NCBI RefSeq assembly: GCF_003427025.1
Contig: NZ_QVAI01000003.1
Location: 434,001 to 498,000 of the forward strand
Origin: Jiangella endophytica
GTDB taxonomy: Bacteria > Actinomycetota > Actinomycetes > Jiangellales > Jiangellaceae
Length of the DNA stretch: 64,000 bases
Direction of reading: 5' to 3'
Shown: positions 12,319 through 20,318 of the stretch, piece after piece
Position numbering within the stretch: position 1 is the first letter of the stretch
Layout of the letters: each line of letters begins with the position of its first letter
Position numbers and translations under genes: made by a program
Notes under the pieces: model-generated
Told to the model about the DNA's origin: nothing
Databases searched by the model: none
The model's input: only the letters and a program-made list of their open reading frames with translations

Positions 12319-12981
12319 TCAGGCTCGTCTTCCGGCACTGACCTCGAGTTCGTCGAGGAGCGTGAGGACGCGGCGTTCGATCTCGTCGCGGATGGGGCGG
12401 ACGGCGGTGAGGTTCTGTCCGGCGGGGTCGTCGAGGGTCCAGTCCTCGTAGCGTTTGCCGGGGAAGACGGGGCAGGCGTCGCCGCAGCCCATGGTGACGA
12501 CGACGTCGGCGGCGCGGACGGTCTCGTCGGTCCAGGGCTTGGGGAACTCGGCGGCGATGTCGATGCCGCGTTCGGCCATGGCGGCGACGGCGATCGCGTT
12601 GACCTGCTCGCCTGGTTCGGAGCCGCCGGACCAGGCGATCGCGTTCTCGCCGGCGTGGTGGCGGAAGAAGCCGAGGGCCATCTGGGAGCGGCCGGCGTTG
12701 TGCACGCACAGGAACAGCACGGTGGGTCGGCCGTCGTGGCTCAGGCCCTCGACCCGGGCGAGGGCGGTGAGGCGCTGGCGGGCGAACCGTTCGGCCAGCA
12801 GCGGGAGGAAGTTCGCGACGACGGCTCGGCCGGCGAACTGGTCGTAGGAGGTGTGCAGGAACCGCTCGATCGTCTCGGTGCCGAAGGTCCCTTCGAAGTC
12901 GCTGGCCAGGCGGGTGGCGGCGGTAGTGAGGGCGACCTGCTGGTCCAGCGTGAGCGGTTCGCGTTCGTAGGTGTTCGACAT
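12319..12981 (-). CDS. arsC: Arsenate reductase ArsC (thioredoxin-type) with N-terminal helical domain
   Basis: A 220-residue protein. Residues 85-215 are a low-molecular-weight phosphatase-fold arsenate reductase with the CX5R loop CVHNAGR, the distal redox cysteines in TMGCGDACP, and WTLDDPAGQ as the general-acid region. Residues 1-80 form an extra helical bundle (LTTAATRLASDFEGTFGTETIERFL) often found in actinobacterial members. It reduces arsenate to arsenite for export. It lies 12 bases downstream of the ArsR-phosphatase fusion in the same operon, so expression is probably arsenite-induced. Confidence 0.92.
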   Translation of the reverse strand: MSNTYEREPLTLDQQVALTTAATRLASDFEGTFGTETIERFLHTSYDQFAGRAVVANFLPLLAERFARQRLTALARVEGLSHDGRPTVLFLCVHNAGRSQMALGFFRHHAGENAIAWSGGSEPGEQVNAIAVAAMAERGIDIAAEFPKPWTDETVRAADVVVTMGCGDACPVFPGKRYEDWTLDDPAGQNLTAVRPIRDEIERRVLTLLDELEVSAGRRA

Positions 12982-12993
12982 GAGGTGCTCCGT

Positions 12994-13665
12994 TCAGGAA
13001 GCGGTGAGTCGTGGGGCGAGGCCGCCCACGCGGTCGGCGAGTGTCGTGACGGCGGCATCGAAGGCCTCGTTCGTGCCGGCCGGGACGGGATCCGGGATGG
13101 ACCAGTGCAGGCCGCCGAGGTCGCCGATCTCCTCGTGTGCGTGGTCGCAGACGGTGATGACGAAGTCGTCGTCGGCGGCGATGTCGGCCAGCCGGCGCGG
13201 ACGTGCCGGTCGTATCGGCAGATCATGGCGGCGTGCGGCGGCGACGGCACCGGGGTCGATGCGCGCGGCGGGGTGGGTGCCGGCCGACGTCGCGGGGATA
13301 CTGCTGGCGCGCCGCCAGAGTGCCGCTGCGAGCTGCGAGCGGGCGGAGTTGGCGGTGCAGACGAACACCACGCGGTGCGCGTGCCCGACGGCGCCGGGGG
13401 ACAGCCCGTCGAGTGCGCCGGGGTTGAGCCGGACGTAGCTGCGCCGCCGGTCTGCCTCGGACCGGCGGCGCGTCAGCAGTCCCGCCGCCTCGAGCGCCCT
13501 GAGGTGGTGGGCCAGCAGGTTCGACGGCATCCCGAGCCGTTCCTGCAGCTCACTGGGGGAGAGATCGCCGAGGCTGAGCAGGTCGACCATGTGCAGCCGC
13601 GCCGGATCGGACAGCGCTGCGTGCGTCGCGGCGCGCCGCTCCAACTCGGTTCGCTCAACATTCAT
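12994..13665 (-). CDS. ArsR repressor fused to a low-molecular-weight phosphatase/arsenate reductase domain
   Basis: A 223-residue fusion. Residues 1-85 are an ArsR-type winged helix (ATHAALSDPARLHMVDLL, PSNLLAHHLRALEAAGLLTRRR). Residues 95-223 are a second LMW-PTP/ArsC-like domain with CX5R loop CTANSAR and a SIPDPVP acid loop. The redox cysteines of trx-linked ArsC are not obvious in this domain, so it may be a phosphatase, an arsenate sensor or a glutaredoxin/mycothiol-linked reductase. The ATG has GAGG seven bases upstream, and the operator at 13674-13703 lies directly in front, so autoregulation with arsC (12 bases downstream) and the divergent aquaporin gene is likely. Such fusions are known in actinobacteria. 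Confidence 0.88.
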   Translation of the reverse strand: MNVERTELERRAATHAALSDPARLHMVDLLSLGDLSPSELQERLGMPSNLLAHHLRALEAAGLLTRRRSEADRRRSYVRLNPGALDGLSPGAVGHAHRVVFVCTANSARSQLAAALWRRASSIPATSAGTHPAARIDPGAVAAARRHDLPIRPARPRRLADIAADDDFVITVCDHAHEEIGDLGGLHWSIPDPVPAGTNEAFDAAVTTLADRVGGLAPRLTAS

Positions 13666-13673
13666 TGCCTCAA

Positions 13674-13703
13674 TCTTGACTGAGCTAATCCGCTCCGTCA
13701 AGA
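13674..13703. promoter_or_regulatory. ArsR operator (inverted repeat) between divergent ars genes
   Basis: TCTTGAC and GTCAAGA form a perfect 7-base inverted repeat separated by 16 bases. The site fills the gap between the arsR-arsC operon start (13665) and the aquaporin start (13705-13714), so one repressor dimer could silence both directions. Confidence 0.65.
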
Positions 13704-13713
13704 TGTGGCCGTG

Positions 13714-14427
13714 ATGCGGAGACGTTTGCTCGCCGAGTTCCTTGGCACGGGTCTGCTGGTGGCCGTCGTTGTCGGCTCCGGGGTCGCTGCGCAGCGGCTG
13801 TCGCCGGGCGACGTAGGGCTGCAGCTGTTGCAGAACAGCACCGCGACCGTGCTGGGGCTCACGGTGCTGATCCTGCTGTTCGGGCCAGTGTCGGGGGCGC
13901 ACTTCAACCCGGTGGTGTCGCTGGCGGACTGGTGGCTGGGCCGCCGATCGGGCAGCGGGCTCTCCGGCAGCGAACTCGGGGCCTATGTGGTCGTCCAGTG
14001 TGCTGGCGGCATCGGCGGGGCGCTGCTGGCGAACGTCATGTTCTCCGTCGACGCCGGGCTGGCGACGACGGAACGCAGCGGCGCCGGCCTGCTGGTCGGT
14101 GAGGTGGTGGCGACGGCCGGGCTGGTGCTGCTGATCTTCGCCCTCGCCCGATCCGGCCGGGCCGCGCTGGGCGCTCCGGCGGTCGGCGCCTATATCGGGG
14201 CGGCGTACTGGTTCACCAGCTCCACCTCGTTCGCCAACCCCGCCGTCACCGTCGGGCGGATGTTCACCGACACGTTCGCCGGTATCGCGCCGTCCTCGGT
14301 TCCGGGGTTCGTCGGCGCCCAGCTGGCCGGCGGCGCCGTCGGCGTCCTGCTGGTGCTCGTCCTGTACCCGATCGCGGTCCGCACGGCCGACGCCGTCATC
14401 GTCGATGCCGAACCCGCCCGAGCCTGA
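13714..14427 (+). CDS. Aquaporin/glycerol-facilitator family channel (probable arsenite channel)
   Basis: A MIP-family protein of 237 residues with six hydrophobic segments and two NPA-type loops: AHFNPVVS (NPV variant) near residue 67 and SFANPAVT near 173. Aquaporins in ars operons (AqpS, known in S. meliloti) let arsenite leave the cell after ArsC reduction; no ArsB or Acr3 pump is seen in this window, so this channel probably provides the efflux route. GTG codons at 13705 and 13711 are alternative starts. No Shine-Dalgarno sequence is visible and the operator abuts the start, so a leaderless mRNA is likely. Confidence 0.85.
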   Translation: MRRRLLAEFLGTGLLVAVVVGSGVAAQRLSPGDVGLQLLQNSTATVLGLTVLILLFGPVSGAHFNPVVSLADWWLGRRSGSGLSGSELGAYVVVQCAGGIGGALLANVMFSVDAGLATTERSGAGLLVGEVVATAGLVLLIFALARSGRAALGAPAVGAYIGAAYWFTSSTSFANPAVTVGRMFTDTFAGIAPSSVPGFVGAQLAGGAVGVLLVLVLYPIAVRTADAVIVDAEPARA

Positions 14428-14436
14428 GAGGCACCC

Positions 14437-15839
14437 GTGCACATCGTCGCCATCGGCGGCAGCGACGCCGGCATCTCCGCCGCGTTGCGCGCTCGCGAGC
14501 TGGACCCGTCGGCCGAGGTGACGTGGTGGTCGCCGACGCCTACCCGAACTTCTCCATCTGCGGGATCCCGTACTACATCTCCGGCGAGGTCGGGCACTGG
14601 TCGAACCTGGCGCACCGCACCCACGCCGACCTGGAGGCCACCGGTATGCGGCTGCGGCTGGACACCCTGGCCACCGCGATCGACGTCACCGGGCGGCGGC
14701 TCGCGCTGCGGGAGAGCGACGGCACCGAGACGACCCTGGGCTACGACGAGCTGATCGTGGGCACAGGCGCGCTGCCGGTGCGCCCGCCGATCACCGGCCT
14801 GGACGAGCTCGGCGCGGCCGACGGCGTGCACGTGCTGCACTCGATGGGCGACACGTTCGCGCTCGAGCAGAGCCTGGATCGCATCAAGCCCTCGACGGTG
14901 CTCATCGTCGGCGCCGGTGACGTCGGGCTGGAGATGGCCGAGGGATTGACCGCCCGCGGGATCGCCGTCACCCAGGTCGAGATGCTGCCCGAGGTGCTGC
15001 CCACCGTCGACGCCCGACTCGGCGCGCTGGTGCATGCCGAGCTGGACCGCCACGGCGTCACCGTCCACACGCAGTCGACCGTCACGTCGATCTCCCGCGG
15101 GGCCGCAGGCCTGCACGTCGACGCCGCGGGGCCCGACGGCGAGCCGCTCGCCTGGGACGTCGACGTCGTCCTGGTCGTGGTCGGGGTGCGCCCGGACACC
15201 GACCTGCTCGTCGCCGCCGGGGCACAGACCGGGCCGCGCGGCGCCGTCGTCGTCGACGAGACCATGGCCACCGGGCTGCCGCACGTCTGGGCCGCCGGCG
15301 ACTGCGTCGTCACCCACCACCGCCAGCTCGGCGTCACCTACTTGCCGCTGGGCACGACGGCGCACAAGCAGGGCCGGGTGGCCGGCGAGAACGCGCTCGG
15401 CGGTGCCACCCGATACGCGGGCAGCCTCGGCACCCAGGTCGTCAAGGTGTTCGACCTCGTCGCCGCCCGCACCGGACTGCGCGAGCACGAAGCGACGGTG
15501 GCCGGGTTCACGCCGGTCAGCAGCACCGCCACACCGGACGACCACAAGGCCTACTACCCGGGCGCCCAGCCCATCACCATCCGCATCACCGGCGACGCCG
15601 GCACCGGCCTGCTCCTCGGTGCCCAGCTGGTCGGGCCGCGCGGCACCGAGACCGCCAAACGCCTCGACACCTACGCCACCGCGCTGTTCCACGCCATGAC
15701 CGTCGACGCCTTCAGCGAGCTCGACCTGTCGTACACCCCGCCGCTCGGCTCACCCTGGGACGCTACCCAGATGGCCACCCAGGCCTGGGTCCGCGAGCAC
15801 CAGCTCCCGACGCAGGTGCGTGCGCTGACCCGCGGATAG
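14437..15839 (+). CDS. FAD-dependent pyridine nucleotide-disulfide oxidoreductase, CoA-disulfide-reductase-like (apparent frameshift)
   Basis: With one base restored near 14521 this is a 467-residue flavoprotein. The N-terminal HIVAIGGSDAGISAALRARE (FAD motif) lies in the frame starting at 14437; the sequence then shifts, at GTGACGTGGTGG where one base is missing, into the frame with VADAYPNFSICGIPYYISGE. The cysteine in SICGIPYY matches the single redox cysteine of CoA-disulfide reductase/NADH oxidase relatives. A second Rossmann motif (VLIVGAGDVGLEMAE), WAAGDCVVT and a C-terminal dimerisation domain follow. It starts nine bases after the aquaporin gene. Genes of this type occur in arsenic clusters; the substrate is unknown. 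The shift may be a sequencing error or real decay. Confidence 0.8.
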
Positions 15840-18542: not shown

Positions 18543-18899
18543 ATGCTCGACGGCGTGAGCGATGTCGTCCAAGCGGGGGAGCGCAGGTCGTTGCCGCTGG
18601 TCACCGACGACTTGGCCGAGCTCGGCGACGCGACGCTCGAGTTCCTCAAGGCGCTCGCCAGTCCGGCGCGGCAGAAGATCCTGCTGCTGTTCGCTCGTGG
18701 CGCCGAGCTGTCGGTGGGGCAGATCGCCGAACTCGCCGGCATCGGCCAGTCGACCGCGTCAGAGCAGCTCAAGTTCCTGCGGCGCGGTGGCATCGTCACC
18801 TCGCGGCGCGACGGCAAGACCGTCTACTACCGCGCTGACAAGGACGGCATGGCCCGCGCGCTCGATGACCTGCAGAACTACCTCAAGGTCTGCTGCTGA
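18543..18899 (+). CDS. arsR: ArsR-family transcriptional repressor
   Basis: A 118-residue winged-helix repressor: LEFLKALASPARQKILLLFARG, GQIAELAGIGQSTASEQLKFLRRGGIV and RRDGKTVYYRAD are helices 1-5 and the wing. There is no ELCVCDL motif in helix 3; the only cysteines are the last two residues (YLKVCC), so metalloid sensing would need a C-terminal site. The GTG at 18555 is an alternative start. It is divergent from the ArsO-like gene with the operator at 18510 between, and is followed five bases later by an acetyltransferase gene. Confidence 0.88.
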   Translation: MLDGVSDVVQAGERRSLPLVTDDLAELGDATLEFLKALASPARQKILLLFARGAELSVGQIAELAGIGQSTASEQLKFLRRGGIVTSRRDGKTVYYRADKDGMARALDDLQNYLKVCC

Positions 18900-18904
18900 A
18901 CGCC

Positions 18905-19354
18905 GTGCGTCTGGTGCTGATCGAGAAGCGCCGAAGGCCCGACGACGACCGCTACACCTGGCAGCGGTTCGAGCTGAGCGAGCACTTCAACGAACGCTGG
19001 TGGAACGAGCCGCGGCTCTTCGATGACAGTGCGACCTACTTTGAGGTGCGTCTGGACGGCGTTGAGGTTGCCCGCGTCGAACTCGACGATCGGGTTGGCT
19101 TCGCCCGCGACTTCGGTGCACCCCAACTGGGTGCTGCCGCACTCGAGATCCAGTTCATCGAAGTTGCGCCTGCCTACCGTGGTAGGGGCATCGGAACCGA
19201 GGTGGTCACGCGCATCGCGGCCCTCCACCCGGGCTGCCGGCTCATGGCGCTCAGTGAGCACGCCGACGAGTTCTGGTCGTCTCTGGGGTGGCAACGTTAT
19301 GAGCGCCCTGAGCGTCATCTCCGCGGGCAGCCCCTCTACCTCCAGCCGCCCTGA
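18905..19354 (+). CDS. GNAT-family N-acetyltransferase
   Basis: A 149-residue GNAT protein. EIQFIEVAPAYRGRGIGTEVVTRI holds the acetyl-CoA motif (R-G-x-G-x-G) near residue 97, and LGWQRYERPE is the typical last strand. The GTG start lies five bases after the arsR stop, so the two are probably co-transcribed. The substrate is unknown; ars clusters sometimes carry acetyltransferases that modify organoarsenicals (ArsN), but this protein shows nothing that proves that role. It is convergent with the next arsR gene, two bases away. Confidence 0.8.
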   Translation: MRLVLIEKRRRPDDDRYTWQRFELSEHFNERWWNEPRLFDDSATYFEVRLDGVEVARVELDDRVGFARDFGAPQLGAAALEIQFIEVAPAYRGRGIGTEVVTRIAALHPGCRLMALSEHADEFWSSLGWQRYERPERHLRGQPLYLQPP

Positions 19355-19356
19355 CG

Positions 19357-19722
19357 TCACCGGCCCAATGACAGGGCGTCGCGGATGGCAACCAGGCGCT
19401 CCGGGATCACGCGGTAGTAGATCCAGGTGCCGCGACGATCTCCGGTGATCAGGCCCGCGTCGCGCAGCAGCTTGAGGTGGTGGCTGGTGGTGGCCGCCGT
19501 CTTGCCGATGCTGGCCGAGAAGTCGCAGGCGCAGACCTCGTCGGCGTTGAGCAGCATCGACAGGATCTTCACCCGGGCCGGGTCGGCCAGCGCCTTGAAC
19601 ATGCCGGCCAGCAGCGAGGCGTCGTCGTCGCTCATGGTCGAGCTTGGCGTGCAGCAGTCGTTCAGCACCGGCAGGGTGCGAGCGCTCCCCGGCGCGATAG
19701 GGCTGATCGCGGTGGTGGTCAT
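19357..19722 (-). CDS. arsR: ArsR/SmtB-family repressor with helix-3 cysteine motif
   Basis: A 121-residue repressor. An N-terminal NDCCTP pair and VCACDF in the recognition region (equivalent of ELCVCDL) provide an As(III)-binding set. LAGMFKALADPARVKILSMLL and SHHLKLLRDAGLITGDRRGTWIYYR are the winged helix. Its start faces the inverted repeat at 19785-19809 and the two small ORFs beyond, so it probably controls both itself and them. Confidence 0.9.
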   Translation of the reverse strand: MTTTAISPIAPGSARTLPVLNDCCTPSSTMSDDDASLLAGMFKALADPARVKILSMLLNADEVCACDFSASIGKTAATTSHHLKLLRDAGLITGDRRGTWIYYRVIPERLVAIRDALSLGR

Positions 19723-19784
19723 CGTCGCTCCAGGCTACCTCGGGCGATCCGCTGTTTCCATGATTCTCGAAGTTTGTTTTGACA

Positions 19785-19809
19785 TTCATCGAATCAGTGT
19801 TTAGATGAA
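19785..19809. promoter_or_regulatory. ArsR operator between arsR and the Cys-pair small ORFs
   Basis: TTCATC and GATGAA form a perfect inverted repeat with a 13-base spacer in an AT-rich patch (19755-19820) of an otherwise GC-rich locus. Further CATCGAA copies flank it. It fits an ArsR/SmtB operator for divergent transcription. Confidence 0.6.
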
Positions 19810-19863
19810 CATCGAAACAAGGTCGGTCTGTTCCGGCCCCGTGGATGTTGCCGAGGAGGCGTC

Positions 19864-20058
19864 ATGGACCCGTACCTGCCCGAGACGATGGCCGCGGAGC
19901 GCCGGCGCGACCTGTTCGCCGAGGCCGCCCGCAACCGTCTCGCCGCGTTGGCGACCTGCTGCCGCCCGGGCGCCCTAGGACGCGCGACAGCGCGTATCCG
20001 CGACGCTTGGGCAACACGTGCCGCCCGCCGCGGCACTGCCTGCTGCGTCACCACCTGA
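19864..20058 (+). CDS. Small protein with two Cys-Cys pairs, 64 residues, unknown
   Basis: Starts MDPYLPETMAAERRRDL with GAGGAGG eight bases before the ATG, an unusually strong start signal. It is Ala/Arg-rich and mostly helical in appearance, with two vicinal cysteine pairs, ATCCRP near residue 32 and TACCVTT at the end. Vicinal thiols are As(III) ligands in many sensors. It faces the As(III)-type arsR across the operator at 19785. I do not recognise the family; it could be a truncated gene, but the start signal and cysteines argue for function. Confidence 0.55.
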   Translation: MDPYLPETMAAERRRDLFAEAARNRLAALATCCRPGALGRATARIRDAWATRAARRGTACCVTT

Positions 20059-20098
20059 CCGGCGCCCCACCGCTCGTGCGTGAGGGGAGGTGACCACG

Positions 20099-20152
20099 AT
20101 GGACTGCTGCGACGACCAGACAGCGGACTGCTGCGACACCGGTTGCTGCTAA
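20099..20152 (+). CDS. 17-residue cysteine-rich peptide (MDCCDDQTADCCDTGCC)
   Basis: A mini-ORF of 17 codons with six cysteines in three vicinal pairs and five aspartates. It has one of the best ribosome binding sites in the window (GGGGAGGTGACCACG before the ATG) and ends in TAA. It is 40 bases after the 64-residue Cys-pair ORF and under the same presumed ArsR-controlled promoter. The spacing CC-x6-CC-x3-CC would bind soft metals or arsenite. Too short for homology calls; it could instead be a leader peptide or the start of a lost gene. Confidence 0.5.
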   Translation: MDCCDDQTADCCDTGCC

Positions 20153-20318
20153 CGGTCCCGACCCGCGGCGGCGCTGGCGTTGGGTCAGCGCCGCCCACCG
20201 GGGTTCGGCGCGGAGTCAGGCCGGACGCTACCGGCCCCGACCAGCTCGATTCGACAGCCTCGGGGCCTCGTCGCCGTCGACGTAGCGGACGGGGATCCCC
20301 AGGATCGAGGCCCCGGAG

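Follow-up and report, generated by a model that had tools for sequence, protein, structure and literature searches.

A conserved 17-codon reading frame with three cysteine pairs, divergent from arsR in the Jiangella family, as a candidate metalloid-binding peptide

Bacterial ars operons carry functions for the reduction, efflux, methylation and demethylation of arsenic. The bacterial metallothioneins, such as MymT and SmtA, the latter controlled by an ArsR/SmtB repressor, and the phytochelatins are short and rich in cysteine, and we know of no metalloid-sequestering gene product nearly as short as 17 residues. Within the ars operon itself, no gene specific to sequestration inside the cell had previously been found, according to the abstract of one study (PMC12093948), which describes QueF and QueE of Lysinibacillus as As(III)-binding proteins induced through ArsR. 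In another study (PMC11212059), a short AfArsR peptide with three cysteines becomes folded when it binds As(III), for which its logK is 6.35 at pH 7.5, and its binding of Hg(II) is much stronger than that of As(III).

Here we describe a 17-codon open reading frame (the 17-mer) that lies with a second small frame, ORF1, in a unit divergent from arsR in Jiangella endophytica, a member of a family of soil bacteria. Positions refer to the window, which is the whole 64,000-nucleotide stretch analysed from this 7.85-Mb genome. By description, the 17-mer is like the metallothioneins and phytochelatins in being short, cysteine-rich and presumably metal-induced, but it differs from metallothioneins in having 17 residues and vicinal cysteine pairs only, and from phytochelatins in that it would be made on ribosomes. 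It would share with QueF and QueE the intracellular sequestration of As(III) under ArsR induction as a route to resistance, whereas those are Que-pathway proteins from outside the ars operon and the 17-mer would be a dedicated peptide. Among the open-licence literature matches listed, no description of such a peptide was found. By analogy, the 17-mer may constitute a new microprotein family that works like a minute metallothionein or like the tail of ArsI. We lean slightly towards the view that it is a thiol trap induced through ArsR, a tail-like peptide standing alone that would capture As(III) or another soft metal of similar kind. An earlier note on this DNA had offered a chelator and a cysteine-dependent leader peptide as possible roles, and the comparisons below point to the chelator as the best supported of these.

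Layout, distribution and conservation of the module

ORF1 and the 17-mer are divergent from arsR in the window (Table 1). Both frames lie where the earlier note had placed them, each behind the strong ribosome binding site it had described, and the vicinal cysteine pairs it had reported are present in both, as two CC pairs in ORF1 (residues 32-33 and 60-61) and as CC-x6-CC-x3-CC with five Asp in the 17-mer. Its remark that gene finders would skip the 17-mer does not carry over to ORF1, relatives of which appear in public Jiangella genomes under the annotation hypothetical protein.

Table 1 Positions of the features of the arsR and ORF1-17-mer module in the window.
Feature	Position	Strand	Basis
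arsR, ArsR/SmtB repressor gene	19357-19722	minus	Pfam HTH_5, 2.3e-13
Promoter-like TTGACA-N17-TAGATG, 5' of ORF1 and the 17-mer	19779-19807	plus	Same arrangement at 10 of 14 loci
Conserved operator-like block TCGAATCAGTGTTTAGAT within the promoter	19789-19806	strand-neutral	Aligned at 14 of 14 loci
Shine-Dalgarno GAGGAGG of ORF1	19853-19859	plus	Sequence; similar in relatives
ORF1, basic protein of 64 aa, ATG start, two Cys pairs	19864-20058	plus	
Shine-Dalgarno GGGGAGGTGA of the 17-mer	20084-20093	plus	Sequence; SD-like stretch 5' of the ATG in relatives
17-codon ORF MDCCDDQTADCCDTGCC, ATG start, three Cys pairs	20099-20152	plus	
Hairpin just 3' of the 17-mer stop, terminator-like, no U run	20167-20195	plus	

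Among 148 genomes searched, the window's own included, 12 further genomes, 10 of the same genus and two of the same family, encode an ArsR with an identity of 70% or higher, and ORF1 matched in 14. This ArsR orthologue, ORF1 and the 17-mer co-occur at 14 loci in 13 genomes, all of the Jiangella family, and the 17-mer stands behind ORF1 at every arsR-ORF1 locus of the family (14/14, window included). By profile search, 13 of the 22 Jiangella-family genomes carry the 17-mer; over 393 genomes of the class, the 17-position profile recovered the 14 arsR-linked copies in 13 genomes and one additional weak, partial match (E = 0.05), and over 376 genomes of the phylum it recovered no copy besides the window's own. 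Over the genomes searched, its occurrence is limited to a single family, which counts against its acting as a thiol trap. The earlier note would have withdrawn its proposal if the cysteine pattern were not conserved beside arsR in related genomes; the reading frame is present at 14 of 14 loci, with all six cysteines at 11 of them. The module travels as arsR with the divergent ORF1-17-mer pair, and this form is kept while the genes downstream vary.

One genome of the same genus (G002) has none of the three, and the ORF1 matches in G041 and at a second place in G006 come with no 17-mer. The second G006 match (L046/L061, E = 2e-5) is partial, with no arsR recognised by eye, and it was left out of the alignment. 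A search of viruses with one exact degenerate pattern, which tests only for that exact peptide end, matched 0 contigs. Two copies of the module, about 21 kb apart, occur in G005 (L059, at G005:C201:106000-121000, and L048), and the second adjoins an arsC-like gene.

Across the 14 loci, no part of the region is better conserved than the 17-mer. Its mean pairwise nucleotide identity is 0.86, compared with 0.72 for ORF1, 0.55 for the 115 nt 5' of ORF1, 0.46 for the spacer of 34-55 nt between the two frames, and 0.31 and 0.26 for the first 60 nt and the next 140 nt 3' of the 17-mer; the flanks are rich in indels. The frame is open in all 14 copies, one of which has an extra in-frame codon. M1, D2, C3, C4, C16 and C17 are invariant, the first and third cysteine pairs are intact throughout, and the acidic residues are likewise conserved (net charge -4 to -6). 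One cysteine of the middle pair is lost at three of the 14 loci (C11 is Ser in two and C12 is Gly in one), and this loss counts against a thiol trap.

Counted on the arsR tree, the whole 17-mer has undergone 20 synonymous and 32 replacement changes, a deficit of replacements relative to expectation (P = 0.0003, 0.0046 and 0.032 at kappa 1, 2 and 4), and the cysteine codons 3, 4, 16 and 17 show five synonymous changes and no replacement (P = 2e-4 at kappa 2). These counts indicate selection on the protein, chiefly on the outer cysteine pairs, with the middle of the peptide freer. Selection over the whole peptide is modest, a point that we also list against a thiol trap. Co-occurrence and substitution counts together rule out a chance ORF, and the observation is confirmed as real and above chance. 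A frameshifted end of ORF1 was ruled out as well, by the different frame, the separate Shine-Dalgarno sequence and the 34-55-nt spacer.

Terminal position of the 17-mer and the candidate operator

Had the 17-mer been a leader peptide, the speed of ribosomes on its CC codons, set by the supply of cysteine or thiols, would control termination at a hairpin, and this termination would govern a downstream gene. We consider this quite improbable. A cysteine-rich small ORF followed by a hairpin does fit such a role, and cysteine-codon leaders attenuate in mycobacteria according to PMC9094748 and PMC9031893; like the polycysteine small ORFs of mycobacteria, the 17-mer is a tiny actinobacterial ORF with contiguous cysteine codons. 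The mycobacterial ORFs, however, are leaderless and regulate genes downstream (PMC9031893), whereas the 17-mer, as read from the DNA, is an internal cistron behind ORF1, the last of its unit, with its own Shine-Dalgarno sequence, and the ORFs nearest to it downstream do not point to a regulated gene.

A strong hairpin, defined by z of -2 or less against 30 mononucleotide shuffles, lies just 3' of the 17-mer at nine of the 14 loci and falls short of the threshold at the other five (window: -34.8 kcal/mol, z -3.2), and none of the hairpins is followed by a clear U run. A heuristic gene set was used for these loci, made up of ORFs of at least 70 aa whose third-position GC is high, a few of them doubtful. 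In this set the first ORF downstream runs in the opposite direction at 6/14 loci, and no nearest-ORF cluster is common to more than two. Three Jiangella loci (L047, L049 and L050) share a downstream ABC-transporter region, as a leader might require; the window and L054 share another neighbourhood, and two Phytoactinopolyspora loci share a third. Hairpins at nine loci and differing downstream genes argue that the 17-mer is a terminal cistron and not a leader, and the conservation of its acidic residues and the synonymous variation of its cysteine codons also speak against attenuation. Of the two roles named in the earlier note, that of a leader is therefore disfavoured.

A script found the arrangement TTGA.A-N17-TAGAT. 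5' of ORF1 at 10 of the 14 loci, and the block TCGAATCA.TG.TTAGAT, which lies in the spacer and -10 element, could be aligned at every one of the 14, where it differs slightly. The two frames had been said to lie behind an inverted-repeat operator shared with arsR; a short repeat is present (AATCA-G-TGTTT, 19792-19802) and is perfect in several relatives (AATCA-G-TGATT), but it is imperfect in the window, and a longer repeat there (TTCATC-N13-GATGAA, 19785-19809) is not conserved. At up to three mismatches, beyond which sites would be missed, the operator-like block occurs only once, both within the window and across the complete genome. This suggests that the candidate operator, and with it ArsR, serves only the divergent ORF1-17-mer pair.

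ArsR class, arsI and the inducing metal

The repressor belongs to the ArsR domain family (PF01022, 50.2 bits, cut-off 22; NF033788, HTH_metalloreg, 88.7 bits, cut-off 55). Its best-scoring model was the Rv2640c-type NF041413 (93 bits, below the cut-off of 155), and the CmtR model also matched below its cut-off. The CxC motif given in the earlier note was located at residues 64 and 66, and a CC pair at residues 23-24, absent from that note, is an additional feature; both motifs are present in all six of the 14 ArsRs that were inspected. As defined in PMC11868830, the type 3 As(III) site of CgArsR is formed by Cys15 and Cys16 of one monomer and Cys55 of the other, and the type 1 site of R773 by Cys32, Cys34 and Cys37. 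When the repressor was aligned to CgArsR (PDB 6j0e), its DCC paired with ECC, such that its CC stands opposite the As(III)-binding pair. The repressor is thus like CgArsR in its N-terminal CC and like R773 in its alpha-3 CxC, but unlike CgArsR it lacks Cys55, with Ala60 in the opposite position, and unlike R773 it lacks Cys37, with Ser as the third residue. Since the third cysteine of both typed sites is missing, a hybrid site is indicated. The label "As(III)-type" that had been given to this ArsR hence applies at most tentatively, on its CxC and its CgArsR-like CC, and does not extend to the third cysteine of either site; the incomplete match counts against a thiol trap.

Outside the family, ArsRs of this class face an arsI at 8 of 17 loci, and the unit of arsR and divergent ORF1-17-mer stands where other Actinobacteria have arsR and arsI. 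At E = 1e-20, ArsI was matched in 151 of the 393 class genomes, but the 20 genomes listed for the family gave no match. Given that ArsR and ORF1 are kept and ArsI is not matched, the family would either have lost ArsI or never have had it, and would possess a free-standing, tail-like peptide. The 30 best-scoring ArsI loci (L109-L138) were chosen by score and not at random; at 28 of them the C-terminal tail contains a cysteine pair (for example ...GDPASCCTSGCGEDVGCC in L110). These ArsI/CadI tails are variable, 17 of the best 30 ending in CC, including a single CCC, and an ORF1-like gene with a cysteine pair follows arsI at two. By eye, and as a resemblance rather than homology, the 17-mer looks like the cysteine-pair tail of ArsI without the enzyme. 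It recalls ArsI/CadI further in its position opposite ArsR and, in few genomes, in the ORF1-like neighbour, but at 17 aa it is without the VOC/glyoxalase domain that defines ArsI/CadI and has a separate gene.

ORF1 had no Pfam match and, judged by its sequence, is a new family of small proteins. Its profile matched in 34 of the 393 class genomes at E = 0.01; of the 34 proteins from a separate search of public records, 25 and 16 entered two alignments. An arsR or arsI was matched at two of 16 inspected profile loci (L093-L108), and the remainder, with neither gene matched, were taken as chance or unrelated. A distant relative of ORF1 lies directly behind arsI in G041 and G372, in the order arsR, then arsI-ORF1, and a weaker relative behind arsI in G287 has no cysteine pair. 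The ORF1 relatives that follow arsI in other Actinobacteria appear to form a new arsI-linked family of small proteins. Small ORF1-family proteins were seen directly 3' of arsI at L060 (2297-2452), L093 (about 1501) and L094. A narrower version of our proposal, in which the 17-mer is a dedicated arsenic trap that descends from an ArsI-type tail freed after loss of the enzyme and works with the ORF1 family, is tentative, and we would rather doubt than affirm it.

The metal that induces the unit could possibly be Cd(II), Hg(II) or Sb(III), and the 17-mer may be a metallothionein-like buffer for one of the soft divalent metals Cd, Hg, Pb, Cu and Zn instead of arsenic, with the repressor acting as a CadC/CmtR-like sensor. 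The four cysteines of ArsR, an N-terminal pair plus the alpha-3 CxC, are arranged as in CadC; Lmo1102 has CVC in the place of the CxC, the PDB matches of ArsR include the cadmium efflux accessory protein 1u2w, and the CmtR match points the same way. Five Asp and six Cys in the 17-mer would be in keeping with a Cd cluster. Beside the two Phytoactinopolyspora copies, inspection by eye of the ORFs from -5.5 to +2.5 kb recognised no ars gene, which likewise counts against an arsenic trap. Set against a divalent metal are an ArsO-like gene (cluster c2) upstream at 9/14 loci and a second arsR at 8/14, both within the 15-17 kb read, together with the arsI genes that this ArsR class faces and the distant ORF1 relatives that come after arsI, and we judge buffering of a divalent metal to be unlikely. 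Genes of the arsC type also occur at several loci, in a cluster (c1) that is mixed. On account of the neighbourhood and the link to arsI, arsenic is favoured.

Export genes and a proposed mechanism

SBF/ACR3 (PF01758) had no match in any of the 12 Jiangella genomes (G000-G011) and was matched in four of the five genomes searched of the sister genus Phytoactinopolyspora. The ArsB family (PF02040) was matched in 2 of the 12 Jiangella genomes, one of them the window's own (71.5 bits), and in none of the five Phytoactinopolyspora genomes searched. With ACR3 matched in none and ArsB in two of the 12, sequestration would be useful in most Jiangella. Encoded in the window are an aquaporin, proteins of the arsC type, a monooxygenase that resembles ArsO but scores below the cut-off, and an MFS protein that matches ArsK weakly. 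The ArsB match, the aquaporin and the MFS protein make export possible, least doubtfully so in the window's own genome, and export as a route there counts against a thiol trap.

We propose that arsR and the divergent ORF1-17-mer operon would form a self-contained metalloid-response module. Without metal, ArsR would occupy one operator overlapping the spacer between the -35 and -10 elements and block the operon. The ArsR cysteines would bind a thiophilic ion, for which As(III) is the likeliest candidate, and the repressor would thereby be released, upon which two tiny thiol peptides would be made. The three cysteine pairs of the acidic 17-mer could take As(III) as di- or tri-thiolates, and the basic ORF1 (net charge +3 to +7), with its own cysteine pairs, would probably bind the 17-mer or pass the metal on. 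Counting against a trap, the first cysteine pair of ORF1 is absent at two of the 14 loci, and rapid degradation of the 17-mer is conceivable.

The net charges of ORF1 and the 17-mer are opposite at all 14 loci, where the two always occur together, and this pairing may also be read as that of a regulatory or chaperone microprotein that moves metal to or from ArsR, ORF1, ArsO or a transporter and does not act as a bulk trap. ArsD is a cysteine-pair chaperone of arsenic. Such a role is improbable in our assessment, since ArsR and ORF1 are the only possible partners that recur in every one of the 14 neighbourhoods. A pair of very small genes whose products are oppositely charged, found in changing surroundings and twice in one genome, could also bring to mind a toxin-antitoxin or other non-metal pair with an incidental ArsR-family regulator; the cysteine pairs in ArsR, ORF1 and the 17-mer and the ORF1 relatives behind arsI make this extremely improbable. 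If the 17-mer does trap metalloid, a 17-codon gene controlled with arsR would fill the sequestration gap of the ars operon, and functional metal-binding genes could sit far below the usual limits of gene finders. Loss of 54 bases should then alter metal tolerance, and a 17-residue peptide would be ready for use in biosensors or clean-up.

Several further features were observed around the module. Two arsC-type proteins are encoded side by side on the minus strand (12319-12981 and 12994-14442); one has an N-terminal three-helix domain (NF046112), and the C-terminal part of the other reads as an ArsR-ArsC fusion, with an ORF start inside the aquaporin antisense. A second ArsR-like repressor, which ends in CC, is divergent from the ArsO-like gene (18546-18899, plus strand). 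A GNAT acetyltransferase (18905-19354, plus strand) is convergent with arsR, and L048 has a relative in the corresponding position (cluster c11). Downstream, a C-terminal fragment of a tyrosine recombinase (PF00589; 20319-20543 and 20616-20692) lies beside tRNA-Leu (caa), and the two probably mark what is left of an integrated element, bordering the ars region.
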